The notes under the pieces were generated by a model. The model was not told the origin of the DNA. It worked only from the letters and a program-made list of their open reading frames with translations, and made no database searches. This document shows, piece by piece, positions 1,956-15,828 of a stretch of DNA of 23,855 nucleotides. This DNA comes from a virus, in IMG/VR virus record IMGVR_UViG_3300017748_000136, positions 1-23,855 of that record; one strand, given 5' to 3'. How positions within the stretch are numbered: the first letter of the stretch is position 1; every line of letters begins with the position of its first letter. The translations under genes and the position numbers were made by a program.

Positions 1956-4466
1956 TTAGTGTGTCACAGTCTCGAGTAGTTTGCCATCTTTTTCAGTAAA
2001 GTATGTGGCTACTAATTGATCATATTGTTCTTGATCTATGTTCCACATTACCTCTACGCCTTTTATTGGGTTTGAATTTTTACTGCCAACCGGGCGTTTG
2101 CGGATACGTTTTACACCGTTTCGTTCTATCTTTTTAACAAACTCTCGTTGTGACAGACGTGGTGTTTGTTCTGTTTGAACGTGGTATATAGTTCTTAAGT
2201 GTTCTGTAGGTATTATTGAGTAGTCTTCTTGGGTTTCTTTTATCCAGTTTTTGATTACTCTTTGAGCAGTCATAATTTCAGAAGCATTAAAAGTATTGCT
2301 AACTGATACTTCTAAGACATCTGCAAAGAATCCTATGTTGCCGTCTTTTAGTGCAGCACAAAACTCTTCTAACAATGACATAGTAACAGTCTTCATAGCT
2401 GTTTTAGCATCATTGTTTATACATGTACGTACAAGTTTGTTTTGTACTTTGAATTCTTGTAACACACCTGCAAACAACAGCAACTCTTGTTCCAGGTCTT
2501 CGATGTGTTCGATTACTTCTGGATATACTTCTTCTAGTTTCTTTTCTTGGCGAGGTGCAACGTTGTAGCGCCGGTCCCCGTCTTCTATCTTAACTGCGTC
2601 TGGTCTGTTAGTTAAGAATATAAAATTAGTGTAGCTTGGTAGTTCGTGTTGGTTGCTGCGCATAGCTCGTATTGCAAGCGTCTTCTCTGTTATTTGATTC
2701 TTTAGTTTGTCAGCCATTTTTATAGTGCCAGATGCTGAGTCTGCCATACGAAACTCGTCAACTATTAAGAACAAAGCTGAACGCATGTATAAGTTGAATT
2801 GTTCTTCAATATTTTGCAGCGAACGCATTGGCACATGTTCGTCGCCAAAGAGAGGTTTAAGTATATGACTGTAGAAGATACCTTTACCTGTACCTGGGAC
2901 ACCTGTCAGTATCCAGGCTGTCATTGCTTTTGTTTTAGTTTGATATACATAAGCAAGCCAGTTTATAAAGTATTCAAATTCTAGCTCGCCGTTGCCAAGT
3001 ATGTGAGATATAAGTTTGTATGTAAGTGGACAATGCTCAGACATTAATTTAGCTGTGCCAACTTCATACTGCTGCGTTTCTTTAGCAGCTAACATGTATT
3101 TTGTTTTACGATACATGTTTACATAATATGGTGCGGTGCTTAAATTTACAGCCGGGCTTTTATCTGTGGGATCAAACACAACCCTGGCGTCTGGTACAAA
3201 CGTTGGATTGGTTCGTCCGTGAGAACGCATAAACCCTTCTATTGATGTTTTACTTGTTGGTATAAGAGGATAATGCTCAGTAAATTGATTTAGGTTTGGG
3301 TCAAACAATCCATTGTAGTATGTGTCAGTATAGTAATCGCGCAGCACAATTGGCTGCACAGCACGTCCCGCTTCTTTTATTTCTTCCTCATATGTATCAA
3401 ATACAGATAAGTAGAAATCTTTGTCAGCTTTCTCTATTTCAAAGATAGGTTCGTCTTTAAAATTATACATGTATGTAGGATCATTAATGTTAAAGTAATA
3501 AGCATTGCTGTCACCACCGTTTATGTTGCAGCGAATGTAAGGGCTCGATGATTCATCTGCAATAGTGATGGACATTTTGTCTGGGTTAGTTAGTATTTCT
3601 TCTGGCTTATTGTCTACTGTTGCTATTTGTATGTTAGCTTTTACTTTTTTAAATCCTATGTCTTTTCTTAACTTGTTCTTTAACTCTTGTCCTTTTTGAA
3701 AGCAAACTTCTGGGCTGATGCTGCCCATCATTGCTGCAAGGTTTATTGACGACGCACTACGTTCCACCAAAACGACCCGCTCTAATTGGGGGGAGAACGG
3801 ATCGTTGGTGGCTTCATCAAACGTAGGAGGAGCGATGAAGATGATCTTCGAGTTGTCAGCTACTGATGTGTCAAGTGGATACTTGAGGGCATGGCTGTTG
3901 CTAGACAATTCGAGTTGGGAACTAAATAGTTCCGAAGTATAGTTAACATGTTGCAGCCATAACTTAACTGATTTGGCTGGCATTGGTACGCTTAATAGCA
4001 TAAAGATGTGTAGAGATACTTTAGTCTCTTTAAGTCCTAAGCTAGCTGATGCTTGTGCAATGTAACTTATGTTTTGCATTTCTTCGGGCAGATTCATAAT
4101 TATCTGCTCAGCCATAAACTCAACATCTACAATAGTCAAATTTGCTTTTTTAGGGTTGTAGTTTGGTAGCACGATGCCGTCTAAATCTAAAACTAATAGG
4201 CTTGTATACGCCGCCCTGTCAGATAACCCAGCCCTGCTTTCGTTTAGGATAGGACGTTTTAATGGGCCCTTTAACATGCAGTGCCCTTTGTTACCATGAT
4301 CTATTATTAGATCTTTTAGTTCTTTCAATCCGTCTTTTGAGGTCGGAATGTTATAATGATGGGAAGTAACTGCTTTAACGTGGGGGTATGGAGTAAAGGT
4401 GTTGTCTTTTTTATAGAGCTTACTAAGCCTGAGACCGTTGCTGGCCTCTAAAAATGTAATATCCAC
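1956..4466 (-). CDS. Primase-helicase, AEP-like primase plus SF3/D5-type helicase (836 aa)
   Basis: Likely bifunctional replication protein. The N-terminal third has an archaeo-eukaryotic primase pattern: D94-x-D96 in LVLDLDG, then SLHIFMLL with H153, then a distal acidic residue near D199. The C-terminal half carries a helicase of the DUF5906/NrS-1-like group: Walker A GVPGTGKG at 522-529 (K528), Walker B LFLIVDEF with D570/E571, sensor N620 in FLTNRPD and the family-typical DGDRRY at 629-634. The start is GTG at 4466, supported by AGGAGG 5 nt upstream in the 9-bp gap after csrA. Together with the upstream polymerase it forms the replisome core. The primase assignment is less certain than the helicase. 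Confidence 0.88.
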   Translation of the reverse strand: MDITFLEASNGLRLSKLYKKDNTFTPYPHVKAVTSHHYNIPTSKDGLKELKDLIIDHGNKGHCMLKGPLKRPILNESRAGLSDRAAYTSLLVLDLDGIVLPNYNPKKANLTIVDVEFMAEQIIMNLPEEMQNISYIAQASASLGLKETKVSLHIFMLLSVPMPAKSVKLWLQHVNYTSELFSSQLELSSNSHALKYPLDTSVADNSKIIFIAPPTFDEATNDPFSPQLERVVLVERSASSINLAAMMGSISPEVCFQKGQELKNKLRKDIGFKKVKANIQIATVDNKPEEILTNPDKMSITIADESSSPYIRCNINGGDSNAYYFNINDPTYMYNFKDEPIFEIEKADKDFYLSVFDTYEEEIKEAGRAVQPIVLRDYYTDTYYNGLFDPNLNQFTEHYPLIPTSKTSIEGFMRSHGRTNPTFVPDARVVFDPTDKSPAVNLSTAPYYVNMYRKTKYMLAAKETQQYEVGTAKLMSEHCPLTYKLISHILGNGELEFEYFINWLAYVYQTKTKAMTAWILTGVPGTGKGIFYSHILKPLFGDEHVPMRSLQNIEEQFNLYMRSALFLIVDEFRMADSASGTIKMADKLKNQITEKTLAIRAMRSNQHELPSYTNFIFLTNRPDAVKIEDGDRRYNVAPRQEKKLEEVYPEVIEHIEDLEQELLLFAGVLQEFKVQNKLVRTCINNDAKTAMKTVTMSLLEEFCAALKDGNIGFFADVLEVSVSNTFNASEIMTAQRVIKNWIKETQEDYSIIPTEHLRTIYHVQTEQTPRLSQREFVKKIERNGVKRIRKRPVGSKNSNPIKGVEVMWNIDQEQYDQLVATYFTEKDGKLLETVTH

Positions 4467-12154: not shown

Positions 12155-12520
12155 TTAGTAAACTGATGTTGGAAATATGGTGGTGTACAAGCCCTGTTCA
12201 TAAAGCGCTTCTTGCATATCAAGTGCTCTTGAGAAGGGCAGGTTGACTGCTAGATGTTGCGAGGGGTGCAAGATCTCTGTTGAATCTGGATGAATCCTAC
12301 TGACGTCATCTACGATTCGTTTTATGTCGCTAAGGCGTAAGTCTGCGAAGCACTCTTTTCGTGCTCCGCTGTTGTTTAAGTTTTTGATGGCGTCGATTCG
12401 AGCTTTAGCGTCGTAACGGCCTTCTCTGTCGTCGAAGTATCCGTCTAGTCCTATAGCTGCGACGATCCAGTTACGTCTTTGTTGGTAGTCTTCGATTGTT
12501 GGTAGTTTCTTTATGTTCAT
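12155..12520 (-). CDS. Hypothetical protein (121 aa)
   Basis: A soluble, mixed-charge protein (MNIKKLPTIEDYQQRRNWIV at the N-terminus) with no recognised motif. AGGA precedes ATG 12520 by 7 nt, and one copy of the repeated hairpin/promoter element lies just upstream. It is preceded by a terminator after the 111-aa gene, so it probably has its own transcription start. Confidence 0.7.
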   Translation of the reverse strand: MNIKKLPTIEDYQQRRNWIVAAIGLDGYFDDREGRYDAKARIDAIKNLNNSGARKECFADLRLSDIKRIVDDVSRIHPDSTEILHPSQHLAVNLPFSRALDMQEALYEQGLYTTIFPTSVY

Positions 12521-12537: not shown

Positions 12538-12586
12538 TATTAATAACTCTTACTTAGCCTATCGACATCTGCCGAAGGCAGTGTCG
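12538..12586 (-). promoter_or_regulatory. Repeated hairpin/promoter element, copy 1
   Basis: Reading leftward: a 10-bp hairpin with one bulge and a TTC loop (stem CGACA/TGTCG then CTGCC/GGCAG), GATAGGCT in place of GATATGTC, 9 bp, then TTATTAATA. If TATTAA is a -10 box, a weak -35 lies 17 bp upstream. It precedes the 121-aa gene. Compared with the other copies, the box next to the hairpin is the most divergent. Confidence 0.6.
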
Positions 12587-12635
12587 CTTACTGTCTAGTG
12601 GCACGCTGTGAGCAGCACACGGTAAAACCAGGAAT

Positions 12636-12669
12636 AAAAAAAGATGATGGCCTGTCAGGACTCATCATC
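12636..12669 (-). terminator. Rho-independent terminator overlapping a stop codon
   Basis: On the leftward strand a 7-bp GATGATG/CATCATC stem with an inner CCT/AGG pairing is followed by TTTTTTT. The 5' arm contains the last codons and lies against the stop of the 111-aa gene. It should end that transcript. The region beyond also holds GTGGCACGCTG at 12598-12608. Confidence 0.85.
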
Positions 12670-12990
12670 TTCAGTTGATACTGCTGTGATTGATGGCTTG
12701 TTATCTGGTGATAGTATTGTGGAGCCAGGATCCTCTTGTTCCCAACGTTCCAGAGTGCGGTATGCATCTTCCTCTGCCATGTACTCGGTGTCGCGTGACC
12801 ATGGCTGTGGTATGAACATGTTGCAGTCCCAATCCCACTCAGTACATACTTGTCCTACGTAGTAGCCAGCTGCTGAATGCATGACGCAGTACGGAGATAC
12901 TTCTAGTATCACGTCGGTTGCGTCAAAATCAGATATGACTATGTTGTTTTGAGCTGCTGACATCCAAGCTTGGGTATTAGTATCGATCAT
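12655..12990 (-). CDS. Hypothetical acidic protein (111 aa)
   Basis: I start at ATG 12990 (MIDTNTQAWMSAAQNNIV) because AGGAG lies about 8 nt upstream; a frame extending to 13062 would run through the promoter element. The middle is rich in Trp, Tyr and Cys (CTEWDWDCNMF) and the end is acidic (TEDDES). No family is recognised. It has its own promoter-like element upstream and a terminator at its stop, so it is probably transcribed as a single gene. Confidence 0.75.
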   Translation of the reverse strand: MIDTNTQAWMSAAQNNIVISDFDATDVILEVSPYCVMHSAAGYYVGQVCTEWDWDCNMFIPQPWSRDTEYMAEEDAYRTLERWEQEDPGSTILSPDNKPSITAVSTEDDES

Positions 12991-13010
12991 TTTGTATACT
13001 CCTAATATAT

Positions 13011-13059
13011 AATTAATAACAGACACCAGACATATCGCCAATTGCCGAAGGCAATGGCG
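13011..13059 (-). promoter_or_regulatory. Repeated hairpin/promoter element, copy 2
   Basis: Stem CGCCA/TGGCG, one bulged base, stem TTGCC/GGCAA, loop TTC on the leftward strand, then ATATGTC, 9 bp and TTATTAATTA. TTGGCG lies 17 bp before TATTAA, the best -35 among the copies. The predicted RNA start is about 15 nt before ATG 12990. T-rich DNA follows the hairpin on the opposite strand. Confidence 0.65.
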
Positions 13060-13144
13060 CATCTTTTATCTTTTAGGATCTAGATGATAAGACGGACTGG
13101 TTTGTGGCACGCTGAAAGCGCACGCTGATAGGTTTATGCGAACT

Positions 13145-13160
13145 AAGGGCCGAAGCCCCT
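13145..13160 (-). terminator. UUCG hairpin at the stop of the 65-aa gene
   Basis: AGGGGC-TTCG-GCCCTT on the leftward strand, a 6-bp stem with a UUCG loop overlapping the TAG stop. No U-run follows, so it may stabilise the mRNA 3' end rather than terminate. The rest of the gap to the next gene (13060-13144) holds two GCACGCTG octamers (13107-13114 and 13120-13127). Confidence 0.5.
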
Positions 13161-13356
13161 AGAATGGTATGTCTTCATCCCAATCTTCGCTGCCGCTAGG
13201 GATGAAATCGTAGGCGAGAATGTCGTCTTCTATAGCATCGAGGATGTTCTCAAATGTGCTGGTCTCTTCGCAAGTCAGCTCATCATTGTCTATCGCTCGG
13301 CGTATAGAAGCGGCTTCATCTATGAGCTCTTGAAGCTCAGTCGGTATTGTATTCAT
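13159..13356 (-). CDS. Small acidic protein with an SSB-like C-terminal tail (65 aa)
   Basis: A strongly acidic 65-aa protein with a helical body and no room for an OB fold. The last residues are SEDWDEDIPF*, nearly the bacterial SSB C-terminal tip (DFDDDIPF in E. coli), the docking peptide for RecO, RecQ, PriA, exonuclease I and other genome-maintenance proteins. AAGGAT lies about 6 nt before the ATG. It follows the SLOG gene by 15 bp. It may recruit host SSB-binding proteins to phage DNA, or compete for them. The tail is seen directly; the role is inferred. Confidence 0.8.
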   Translation of the reverse strand: MNTIPTELQELIDEAASIRRAIDNDELTCEETSTFENILDAIEDDILAYDFIPSGSEDWDEDIPF

Positions 13357-13371
13357 AAGCTATCCTTGCCC

Positions 13372-13752
13372 CTAGAATAGAGGCTGTTGTGGGTTATCGT
13401 ACTCGACCAAGCGGCCAGGTTTATCCAAGGCCTGCATGGTAGTGATCATGTTGCGAGTGCCAGGTGAGCTGCCATCCCAGAATGCAACGAGTGCATCTGC
13501 GTGGCTGGCCATGCGGGCATTGCGCTCGTAGCCAGCGGACTTGCCGTATCTTGCCCAGTTAGCTGGGAAGAGATCGAGTTGGCAGCCGCGCTCTTTGGCA
13601 TAGCGTTCGCCAAGTTGATCAGCGCCGCGTGCTGTGCCGCTGACAATGTGGACAGTGGCTAGATCTTTGTTAGCTAAGAGATGATCAAGCTTGCGCTTAA
13701 GCAGATCGTAGTCGTTGAAAGATCTTGAGCCTGCAACAATAACTTTGAACAT
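13372..13752 (-). CDS. DUF2493/YspA-like SLOG-family protein (126 aa)
   Basis: Matches the DUF2493 family of the SLOG superfamily, Rossmann-like domains proposed to bind nucleotides or ADP-ribose derivatives. Landmarks: VAGSRSFNDY (6-15), VSGTARGADQLG (37-48), PANWARYGKSAGYERN (63-78), and FWDGSSPGTRNMI (91-103). It is full length for the family. GGAG lies 8 nt before the ATG, with a copy of the repeated promoter element upstream. Phage members are common but no function is established; roles in nucleotide signalling or anti-defence are proposals only. Confidence 0.88.
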   Translation of the reverse strand: MFKVIVAGSRSFNDYDLLKRKLDHLLANKDLATVHIVSGTARGADQLGERYAKERGCQLDLFPANWARYGKSAGYERNARMASHADALVAFWDGSSPGTRNMITTMQALDKPGRLVEYDNPQQPLF

Positions 13753-13771
13753 AAGATGTACTCCATTAAGT

Positions 13772-13820
13772 AATTAATAATGTTGAATTGACATATCGAC
13801 TGCGACGAAGGAGTCAGTCG
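13772..13820 (-). promoter_or_regulatory. Repeated hairpin/promoter element, copy 3
   Basis: Leftward: outer stem CGACT/AGTCG, then GAC/GTC with a 2-nt bulge and larger loop, then ATATGTC, 9 bp, TTATTAATTA. The outer stem differs from the other copies but still pairs. The hairpin overlaps the stop of the DUF4326 gene (13814-13816). The predicted start is about 14 nt before ATG 13752. Confidence 0.6.
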
Positions 13821-14119
13821 GCAAAGGGATGGATAGAATCATTAGCCCAAGCAGCAGCTCGTACTAGCACATCGCCATGGCATGGTTGAGGGGAGCAGTA
13901 ACAAGCTAGTTGCTTGCCATGCAAATCCGCTAACCTACACATAAGTTCATAGCCAGTTAGATCGTGCTTTAAACGATTCCAAAGATGGACTCTATACTTT
14001 GCTATAACGTCCTCGCGAGTGCCATCAGGCCCGATGCGATATGGGTTACCCCACTCGCTACCTCGGCCGATGTACACAGCGTTAGGAACTTTATCTTTAA
14101 CATGGACTACAGTAGCCAT
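13814..14119 (-). CDS. DUF4326-family protein (101 aa)
   Basis: Recognised by YIGRGSEWGNPYRIG near the N-terminus and LACYCSPQPCHGDVLVRA near the C-terminus, the two signatures of DUF4326. I use ATG 14119 (MATVVHVKD), with AGAGG 5 nt upstream, rather than the codon 6 nt earlier. The family is common in phages and small; the conserved His/Cys cluster suggests a metal or catalytic site, but no activity is known to me. A repeated promoter element lies directly upstream. Confidence 0.88.
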   Translation of the reverse strand: MATVVHVKDKVPNAVYIGRGSEWGNPYRIGPDGTREDVIAKYRVHLWNRLKHDLTGYELMCRLADLHGKQLACYCSPQPCHGDVLVRAAAWANDSIHPFAD

Positions 14120-14134
14120 AAGCACCTCTTAAAT

Positions 14135-14183
14135 AATTAATAACATTGAGTTGACTTACCGTCATTTGCCGAAGGCAATGGCG
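14135..14183 (-). promoter_or_regulatory. Repeated hairpin/promoter element, copy 4
   Basis: Fills the gap between two genes. Leftward: stem CGTCA/TGGCG with one G-T pair, one bulge, stem TTGCC/GGCAA, loop TTC, then GTAAGTC, 9 bp, TTATTAATTA. The hairpin starts on the base after the upstream stop codon. The predicted start is about 10 nt before ATG 14119. Confidence 0.6.
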
Positions 14184-14366
14184 CTAGAAGTATGTAGCTA
14201 TACCTAAGCCTTGCACTATGATCATTGCAAAGCCTAGACAGATTGTGAAGATTGCTAACGCCTCTGCGGCGTAAGACAGCGTCTTCCTAAGCATCCGTTG
14301 TCTGCGTGTAAGCAAGCGATGCTTGCGTCTGTACCGTGCTGATACTGCATAGCGATTCTTATTCAT
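14184..14366 (-). CDS. Small basic membrane protein (60 aa)
   Basis: A very basic N-terminal half (RYRRKHRLLTRRQRMLRK) is followed by one hydrophobic helix (about residues 35-56). It is predicted to sit in the inner membrane with the basic part in the cytoplasm. ATG 14366 has GGAGG 8 nt upstream and overlaps the 26-aa ORF. No family is recognised. Confidence 0.7.
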   Translation of the reverse strand: MNKNRYAVSARYRRKHRLLTRRQRMLRKTLSYAAEALAIFTICLGFAMIIVQGLGIATYF

Positions 14367-14439
14367 GATCGTCTCCTCCAAAGTATGCTTCTATGAGAAT
14401 GTAGATAGCTAATGATCCAATGATAAAGGTTGTAGTCAT
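14359..14439 (-). CDS. Tiny single-helix membrane protein (26 aa)
   Basis: ATG 14439 follows GGAG with good spacing in the sequence GGAGATCACCATG, which also precedes the 85-aa gene. The peptide is one hydrophobic helix (TTTFIIGSLAIYILIEAYF) with an acidic tail. Its 3' end contains the ribosome binding site of the next gene and overlaps it by 8 nt. It is a real small protein or a coupling leader. Confidence 0.5.
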   Translation of the reverse strand: MTTTFIIGSLAIYILIEAYFGGDDHE

Positions 14440-14453
14440 GGTGATCTCCAAAG

Positions 14454-14711
14454 TTAAAGGTCAAGTGCTTCGATGAAGTAGCGGCCATCTCTGCGACGGA
14501 CAGAGTTGATAGCATCGTGATGGTCAAGTTCTGGGCAGCATTGACGCATGTTGATGTTAAAGCGAAGGCTTTTCATACCTTCTACGCCACGGGCATCCAG
14601 GCTAGCGATCCAGTGTGGATTGACGACTTCATACCACGTTACGCCTACGTCGTGTCCACTAGTTGAGTTGTTGTTAGTTACTGTGTGTGAAATCTTTTGG
14701 ATGTTATTCAT
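14454..14711 (-). CDS. Hypothetical protein (85 aa)
   Basis: A soluble protein (MNNIQKISHTVTNNNSTSGH at the N-terminus) with two adjacent Cys and an Arg-rich segment (VRRRDGRYF). AGGAG lies 6 nt before the ATG. It is the first gene leftward of the GTGCAC array, so its promoter probably lies inside that array. No family is recognised. Confidence 0.65.
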   Translation of the reverse strand: MNNIQKISHTVTNNNSTSGHDVGVTWYEVVNPHWIASLDARGVEGMKSLRFNINMRQCCPELDHHDAINSVRRRDGRYFIEALDL

Positions 14712-14727
14712 GGTGATCTCCTAGTTT

Positions 14728-15015
14728 GTGCACCATTGAGTGGGTCTGTGCACCATTTCGTGCACCATTTCGTGCACCATTTAGCAATCGTAAGTTGTTG
14801 ATTGCCATTTGTTAATTGTGTTTGTGCACCTTGTGCACCCTTTTTTTAAGTTAAGTTGTAATTTAGTAGTATTAATAAAATAAAGGTATATATATAAAGC
14901 ATGTACGAAAAATGGTGCACATCGTGCACAAGGTGCACAGATGATTGCAAGTTGTTGATTGTCAACTGTTTATTTTCGTGCACCCAAGCAATTGCAAGGG
15001 TGCACAAGGGTGCAC
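14728..15015. repeat. Array of 12 GTGCAC hexamers; candidate origin or operator cluster
   Basis: GTGCAC starts at 14728, 14748, 14760, 14772, 14824, 14833, 14915, 14924, 14933, 14978, 15000 and 15010. The first four are extended to GTGCACCATT; the copy at 14915 is the reverse form with AATG before it. The copies flank an AT-rich core at 14841-14905. The 13-bp direct repeat AAGTTGTTGATTG occurs at 14792-14804 and 14949-14961, one on each side. The 312-bp gap contains no convincing gene. The layout fits an iteron-type replication origin or a cooperative regulator array. Confidence 0.7.
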
Positions 15016-15023
15016 AGCATTTA

Positions 15024-15335
15024 TTAGTTGTTTTCAGGCCGTCCTTGCTCGGCTTCGCGGTCGTCGCAGTACTCGTTCCAAGCCTCTTGGCGGAACTCGT
15101 TGTCGTCTTCAGGGTAGAAAACTCTGTCGGAACGGTTGTTCCAGACATTATTCATGTGGTTGAGGATGGTATTGTTCTTGAGCAACTGCTCATTGAACTC
15201 GATCTTGCGCTTGATCTTGCGCATCTCGATGGCGGTAAGTGCGAAGTGCGCTATGGCAGCGCCCATGAGGCCAGGTAGGCCAGCGATTAGGAAGTTGATG
15301 AAGTATAGAGAGATGATTACGGTAAGTTTAAACAT
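15024..15335 (-). CDS. Membrane-anchored hypothetical protein (103 aa)
   Basis: The first 37 residues are hydrophobic (MFKLTVIISLYFINFLIAGL, then GLMGAAIAHFALTAI), one or two membrane helices. The rest is charged and probably helical and cytoplasmic. AGGAG lies about 7 nt before the ATG. The leader is nearly the same as that of the next gene rightward (TAATCAGGAGT), suggesting a duplicated 5' region. No family is recognised. Confidence 0.7.
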   Translation of the reverse strand: MFKLTVIISLYFINFLIAGLPGLMGAAIAHFALTAIEMRKIKRKIEFNEQLLKNNTILNHMNNVWNNRSDRVFYPEDDNEFRQEAWNEYCDDREAEQGRPENN

Positions 15336-15368
15336 GATGAACTCCTGATTAGATAATAGACAATAGAC

Positions 15369-15410
15369 AATTGGTAAGTGATAGGTGACGACGGCCTAGT
15401 AATGACCGTC
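15369..15410 (-). promoter_or_regulatory. Degenerate copy of the repeated hairpin/promoter element
   Basis: Leftward: stem GACGG/CCGTC (15390-15410) overlapping the stop of the 66-aa gene, then CCGTCGTC in place of GATATGTC, 9 bp, and TTACCAATT in place of TTATTAATT. The spacing is kept but the boxes are poor. Possibly a decayed or weak copy serving the 103-aa gene. Confidence 0.3.
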
Positions 15411-15596
15411 CATCTGCAACATGATGTCCGCATAGATGAGTGCGTTCATGTCGTGAACCAAGTCACCGATGGTATCCAGTTCGAAGACCACGAGTGCACC
15501 CACAACACCAGTGATGATGGCTGGGTTGTTTGCGATTACTCGGATAGTAGATAGGATGCGTTGCTTAACAGATGCTTTAGTAATAGTAGGTAACAT
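15396..15596 (-). CDS. Small membrane protein, first gene of the leftward block (66 aa)
   Basis: One or two hydrophobic stretches (ITGVVGALVVFEL and around NALIYADIML) follow a basic N-terminus (MLPTITKASVKQRILSTIRV). AGGAG lies about 8 nt before the ATG. It is the leftward gene closest to the divergent intergenic region and has a copy of the repeated promoter element upstream, so it is probably expressed early. No family is recognised. Confidence 0.7.
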   Translation of the reverse strand: MLPTITKASVKQRILSTIRVIANNPAIITGVVGALVVFELDTIGDLVHDMNALIYADIMLQMDGHY

Positions 15597-15624
15597 AAGA
15601 TGTACTCCTGATTAAATAATAAAC

Positions 15625-15670
15625 AATTAATAACATACATATGACATATCACGACGCCGAAGGCGGAGTG
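15625..15670 (-). promoter_or_regulatory. Repeated hairpin/promoter element, copy 5
   Basis: Leftward: a hairpin with CGCC/GGCG around a TTC loop and outer CAC/GTG pairs across a tandem G-A mismatch, then ATATGTC, 9 bp, TTATTAATT. It would drive the first gene of the leftward block, with a start about 22 nt before ATG 15596. Confidence 0.65.
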
Positions 15671-15677: not shown

Positions 15678-15828
15678 GATACAAGGTTCCAGGGGGTAAA
15701 TCTGCAAGAACAAGGTTCCAAAGCAAAAAAGGGTGCGGGGGTGTGTCTGTGGGTACAGGTAAAACAATGCGTGAGCGATTCAGATTACTTTTTCAAATTT
15801 TTTTTTCTGCAAATTTTTTTACAGCGTG
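15678..15828. promoter_or_regulatory. Divergent intergenic region with paired 11-bp repeat
   Basis: No gene is seen here. ACAAGGTTCCA occurs twice, at 15681-15691 and 15710-15720 (29 bp apart, nearly three helical turns), a likely operator pair between the two opposed transcription units. The right part is rich in A/T runs, including two CAAATTTTTTT tracts, which may bend DNA or act as UP-type elements for the rightward promoter. Confidence 0.5.

Follow-up and report, generated by a model that had tools for sequence, protein, structure and literature searches.

Early stem-loop cassettes and a possible hairpin promoter in phages

The original papers on promoter early stem-loops (PeSLs) are reportedly those of Arbiol from 2010 (evq006) and Comeau from 2014 (evu129). 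PeSLs are presented in PMC4503421 as cassettes of T4-type phages. Promoters of the N4 type use a hairpin whose extrusion follows a rule, with a C-G closing pair and a loop that has G first and A last, and they need a G at template position -8 (PMC4496689). Loops of the d(GNA) triloop kind form a stable family in DNA (PMC5815330). Here we describe five hairpin-bearing modules that precede leftward genes in IMG/VR virus record IMGVR_UViG_3300017748_000136, a 23,855-base record of an uncultivated tailed phage that is called the window throughout, meaning the whole of that stretch.

As in PeSLs, the modules join a stem-loop to the start of the next gene, occur many times per genome between small early genes, and are located in a variable early region where genes shuffle. 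PeSL phages are T4-type whereas the module phage is not; further differences are that an early-promoter consensus could not be shown for the modules, and that their hairpin, in which GNA loops and tandem G-A pairs occur, has a strand polarity. With N4 promoters the modules share a template-strand hairpin and a three-base loop, and their C(GAA)G or C(GGA)G loops fit the extrusion rule. In contrast to N4 promoters they have more copies, C at -8 and longer stems that contain a bulge or tandem G-A, and no virion RNA polymerase was found in two large contigs related to the module phage. The cassette is best read as resembling PeSLs in its organisation and N4 promoters in the design of its hairpin.

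Comparison with relatives showed a structure conserved with compensating changes and polarised to the template (+) strand, with genes exchanged behind the modules. We tentatively favour, at somewhat less than even probability, the reading that a single early-gene boundary or leader cassette has given rise, by divergence, to all five modules, and that its hairpin, in template-strand DNA, sets the early transcription start.

The five modules in the window

The five leftward modules lie where a preliminary description of the window had placed them, with lengths of 49, 49, 49, 49 and 46 nt. In gene sense each consists of a hairpin, a 7-nt box, exactly nine nucleotides (N9) and TTATTAAT, and is found ~40-53 nt ahead of a start codon. 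The features are listed below; L107 is a related contig.

12539..12562, minus strand: copy 1 box ATAGGCT, N9 and TTATTAAT, then gene 12155-12520
12563..12586, minus strand: copy 1 hairpin CGACACTGCCTTCGGCAGATGTCG, with + strand loop C(GAA)G
12636..12669, minus strand: T-tailed intrinsic terminator ahead of copy 1, predicted from its fold, also in L107
13012..13035, minus strand: copy 2 box ATATGTC, N9 and TTATTAAT, gene start at 12990
13036..13059, minus strand: copy 2 hairpin CGCCATTGCCTTCGGCAATTGGCG; the L107 ortholog hairpin is at 4206-4229
13773..13796, minus strand: copy 3 box ATATGTC, N9 and TTATTAAT, then YspA-like SLOG gene 13372-13752
13797..13820, minus strand: copy 3 hairpin, CGACTGCGACGAAGGAGTCAGTCG on the + strand, overlapping the DUF4326 gene stop
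14136..14159, minus strand: copy 4 box GTAAGTC, N9 and TTATTAAT, DUF4326 gene start at 14119
14160..14183, minus strand: copy 4 hairpin, immediately past the stop of the preceding open reading frame (ORF); C.A leftward, T.G on the + strand
15626..15649, minus strand: copy 5 box ATATGTC, N9 and TTATTAAT, then gene 15396-15596
15650..15670, minus strand: copy 5 hairpin, of the first leftward gene; + strand CAC-GA-CGCC(GAA)GGCG-GA-GTG
15681..15719, minus strand: two GGAACCTTGT repeats upstream of the first-gene module, kept in many relatives

The 9-nt spacing from box to TTATTAAT and the presence of TTATTAAT itself held in all five copies, and the position of the modules shortly before start codons bears out the view that they mark gene starts. 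Other parts of the preliminary description required revision. The ATATGTC box is exact in three copies (13029-13035, 13790-13796 and 15643-15649) and reads ATAGGCT or GTAAGTC in the other two, and the distance from TTATTAAT to the start codon, given there as a gap of 10-23 nt, measured 16-29 nt. A clean leftward-strand hairpin of 5 bp, one bulged base, 5 bp and a triloop, ascribed to three copies, was seen only in those at 12538 and 13011. The outer stems were said to vary in step, and for the copy at 14135 the CGTCA/TGGCG pairing applies to the + strand (T.G); on the leftward strand it leaves a C.A mismatch. The copy at 13772 has an inner stem of only 3 bp when read leftward. On the + strand, a hairpin with a GAA loop is present in all five copies, and copy 13772 has a tandem G-A block, its sequence CGACTGCGACGAAGGAGTCAGTCG giving, by direct reading, five outer pairs, the tandem G-A block and a C(GAA)G loop. 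When the window was searched with ATTAATAA-N9-GACATAT, allowing up to 3 mismatches, there were 8 matches against 1.3 expected in shuffles, a number reached in none of 100 shuffles. The module had no match above gathering score in Rfam 15.

Selection on the fold

A search of viral contigs with the exact box yielded the module in 2 of 22 stretches, both on contigs of the same species (L090, which is L105, and L103); the remaining 20 had no hairpin and appear to be chance matches. The covariance-model search that had been proposed as a check, run with the 24-nt hairpin, gave strong matches only in the window, L105, L103 and L107, and returned nothing elsewhere below E = 1. L103 is 99.4% identical and spans four module copies, while L105, ~96-98% identical, has all five, three of which carry a single change each, every one outside the hairpin. 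In L107 the ortholog of the 135-aa ORF is 69% identical, and the ortholog of the 13011 hairpin, CGGCGCTACCTCCGGTAGCTGCCG, has the same 24-nt length. When four copies were aligned (three from the window and one from L107), 97.5% of cells paired and 3 pairs were changed on both sides, whereas sliding of the partners gave at most 55%. The window copies by themselves have few compensating changes, and the weight for compensation comes from the relatives.

The box-spacer part was not retained in L107, which has TTGTGTCTGG and then TTATTATT: ATATGTC is replaced, and the hairpin-to-TTATTA spacing is 10 nt as against 16 nt in the window. Since the hairpin was kept and the box-spacer lost, it is the structure that is constrained and not the box spacing. 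Of the conservation expected in relatives, stem pairing was retained in L107 and box spacing was changed there.

Direct evidence that pairing is maintained was obtained by a stem-blind pattern search of IMG/VR, in which the flanks, GA blocks and loop G and A were fixed and the 4-nt stem was left free. All 16 matches were fully paired (64 of 64 cells, with 4 distinct stems), and all share one layout in gene sense. These matches, together with the both-sided changes in L107, sustain the earlier claim that the fold is under selection.

In many relatives a hairpin is found at the same place in the leader of the first leftward gene, after the GGAACCTTGT repeats. The general module, in gene sense, comprises a 21-25-nt hairpin, GTC(G/A)G, ~10 T-rich bases, T(A/G)TG(A/T), an AT-rich segment, the Shine-Dalgarno (SD) sequence and the start, and in relatives the T(A/G)TG(A/T) segment often opens a second hairpin. 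The window form is shortened, with hairpin, A-TATGTC, N9, AT-rich TTATTAAT and SD, and is without the GTCGG-T segment. The likely counterpart of its ATATGTC is the T(A/G)TG(A/T) of relatives, and that of its TTATTAAT their AT-rich segment.

These comparisons bear on the proposal, made in the preliminary description, that the modules are activated sigma70-type promoters in which TATTAA is the -10 box and an activator binds ATATGTC. The exact box-to-TTATTAAT spacing speaks for it, as does a TG preceding T-TATTAA in three of the five copies. Against this, TATTAA is without the final T of a -10 box, the -35 boxes are poor, the putative activator site is inexact in two copies, box and spacing are altered in L107, and the pre-SD segment of wider relatives is merely AT-rich. 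The SD core begins 6-8 nt past TTATTAAT in four copies and 16 nt past it in the fifth, so that a start 6-8 nt past TATTAA would sit at or within ~3 nt of the SD core in four of the five. With its predicted start at or next to the SD and its box and spacing lost in L107, the -10 assignment is not supported, and we regard such a promoter as improbable. TATTAA would be a piece of the AT-rich leader. A scan with a host-type promoter consensus gave fewer promoter-like sites than in shuffles. A Class II activator palindrome centred near -42 was considered and rejected, because paired changes are unexpected of a fixed operator sequence.

Strand polarity of the hairpin

On the template strand, hairpins of relatives have loops of GAA, GTA or GGA and 5'-GA/GA-3' blocks, in which sheared tandem G-A pairing is possible; the coding strand has T.C/C.T mismatches and TNC loops at those positions. 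Polarity was assessed in 35 dereplicated first-gene leaders by scoring the best hairpin per strand against shuffles. With a score that credits tandem G-A pairs explicitly, which is a modelling choice, the best hairpin contained a tandem G-A block on the template strand in 21 of 35 leaders versus 2 of 35 on the coding strand, and mean z was 2.3 for the template and 0.6 for the coding strand. Over early regions, template-strand loops were GNA in 27 cases versus TNC in 3 (binomial p ~8e-6), and tandem blocks were GA in 17 versus TC in 3 (binomial p ~0.003). Within the same contigs, the GNA hairpin class occurred 2 times in 315 kb of late regions versus 12 times in 122 kb of early regions.

Because GNA triloops belong to a stable DNA loop family and the N4 loop rule is obeyed, the analogy suggests that the fold is one of DNA. 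The hairpin would work as folded DNA of the template strand, either extruded or in a transiently single-stranded state, and may set the early transcription start of each cassette. The strand polarity also brings integron-like attC sites to mind. An activator had been proposed to bind ATATGTC or the hairpin DNA; recognition of hairpin DNA fits the strand polarity, and the activator is unproven.

Several observations weigh against the template-strand DNA hairpin. Standard DNA energies give no mean strand difference (-0.2 kcal/mol), probably because standard parameters credit tandem G-A pairs little, and the C-G closing pair is missing in about half of the GNA loops of relatives. The cultured Pseudomonas phage KPP25 (NC_024123), a distant relative, has perfect hairpins 39-48 nt before its first three early genes (L121 7022-7042, 7323-7343, and before 7935). 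It resembles the module phage in these hairpin leaders and in a TTGTGTC after the first hairpin, and differs in having no tandem mismatches and in its purine loops (GGA, GGA and GGGA), which lie on the coding strand, so that the polarity is not universal. The comparison set consists of metagenomic relatives that are incompletely independent of one another. Finally, T-runs follow several mid-gene copies of relatives, which are located 8-33 nt past a stop codon.

Terminator and leader alternatives

The T-runs point to another explanation, in which the hairpin is an intrinsic terminator of the upstream gene in the leftward RNA and a conventional promoter lies elsewhere, giving a terminator-plus-promoter cassette. 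The T-rich consensus after GTCGG fits such a cassette, as do GTCGG-TTTTTTT and an outer CCGA/TCGG stem in some of the mid-gene copies. However, none of the five window hairpins is followed by a T-run in the leftward sense, and of 26 module hairpins 19 have a TNC loop on the coding strand, with T.C/C.T mismatches, whereas T-tailed terminator hairpins outside the module in the same phages have a UUCG tetraloop in 25 of 59 and a TNC triloop in 0 of 59. The module also stands ahead of the first gene, where there is nothing upstream to terminate. Copy 1, moreover, has a separate T-tailed terminator ahead of it at 12636-12669, which implies a new start near this copy. We consider the terminator-plus-promoter cassette unlikely, and because some mid-gene copies of relatives have T-runs just past stops, a dual role of the hairpin is possible. 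A rightward terminator was rejected: a T-run directly follows the + strand hairpin in copy 5 only, and the other copies and the relatives are without one.

The module could also act as a 5' untranslated leader, with an RNA hairpin that protects the mRNA or serves as a processing site and TTATTAATT as an AU-rich translation enhancer beside the SD. The short, 6-8 nt distance of TTATTAAT from the SD in four copies is consistent with this, as are the AT-rich sequence ahead of the SD and the second hairpins in leaders of relatives. The strand polarity, on the other hand, favours the strand that is absent from leader RNA, and we think such a leader rather unlikely.

Cassette behaviour

The genes behind the modules are exchanged between relatives. 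The 85-aa gene that occupies window 14454-14711 is absent from that place in L105, a near-identical phage, and instead stands directly behind the 13011 module (L105 3318-3600). L107 has the 65-aa and YspA-like genes the other way round, with no such module at the YspA-like gene and a different hairpin in front of the ortholog of 12155-12520. Gene shuffling accompanies the modules, and what gene order shows is this accompaniment, not mediation. Two module-borne genes of the window are neighbours on the minus strand, encoding a YspA-like SLOG protein (13372-13752) and a DUF4326 protein (13814-14119).

Which RNA polymerase would read the modules

An N4-type early promoter, read by the clade's own virion RNA polymerase, would likewise be expected to place a C(GRA)G triloop hairpin on the template strand ahead of the gene. 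The N4 loop rule is satisfied by four window copies, by the + strand reading of copy 3 and by L107. The equivalent of template -8, however, is C in the GCC(GAA)GGC copies and not G as in N4. In the two relatives with large contigs (61.1 and 56.7 kb), PF00940, PHROG and Pfam searches, a motif scan and alignments of the giant virion proteins revealed no RNA polymerase, the PF00940 search having matched nothing, controls included, and so being without a positive control. A phage RNA polymerase is likely absent from the two relatives; the window's own record is just 23.9 kb for judging a giant virion RNA polymerase. We regard the N4-type promoter as very improbable.

As no phage polymerase was detected, the host RNA polymerase would most likely be used. 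A more specific proposal, that early genes are switched on when host RNA polymerase, possibly helped by a small phage factor, uses DNA hairpins extruded on the template strand, is in our estimate unlikely.

Giant virion proteins of 1796 and 1986 aa were seen in relatives (L114 2864-8254 and L117 8241-14201). They are 41% identical, share a conserved HExxH-like AHELGH motif and are related to KPP25 virion proteins.

The source phage, its relatives and other repeats

Early and replication genes run leftward in the window and encode a primase-helicase, a DNA polymerase, an exonuclease, a MoxR-type ATPase and a VWA protein; the late genes, for terminase and portal, run rightward. We found no close DNA relative among cultured phages. 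The best cultured match of the large terminase subunit (TerL) was that of Aeromonas phage phiA008 with 49% identity, no cultured phage in the collection having TerL above 50% identity. The phage does not pass as T4-type, its terminase and DNA polymerase relatives being phiA008 and KPP25. A TerL search of IMG/VR gave at least 599 stretches, indicating that the clade is common, and identity was 79-92% across the best 80 of these. For the early proteins of 135, 249 and 103 aa, relatives came from just three loci each.

Other repeats were noted near the modules. The GGAACCTTGT repeats (15681-15719, minus strand) are 29 bp apart, and in ~40 relatives they are usually 25-29 bp apart. In the non-coding stretch at window 14712-15018, roughly twelve GTGCAC repeats surround an AT-rich core; the matching place in L107 has GTGTACAC repeats and other relatives have TGACACAC, TGGCACA or GTGTGCC repeats. 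The arrangement resembles a replication origin of the iteron type, with repeats whose sequence differs from relative to relative. An imperfect palindrome, TATTAGYNNNRCTAATA, is repeated upstream of genes in L034, L039, L044, L051, L068, L069 and L029, with no strong copy within the window, and is a candidate operator.

Implications

The modules extend the stem-loop cassette idea by a form whose hairpin is unusual in its strand polarity, and they are not an ordinary promoter set of the kind first described. If hairpins read by host RNA polymerase do switch on the early genes, each would represent a supercoil-sensing hairpin promoter that works without an N4-type virion polymerase and is carried from gene to gene as a cassette. 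The conserved, strand-polarised hairpin offers a directly testable case of whether DNA hairpins serve as transcription signals outside the N4-like phages, and a second, non-T4 example of regulatory cassettes travelling with small early genes.

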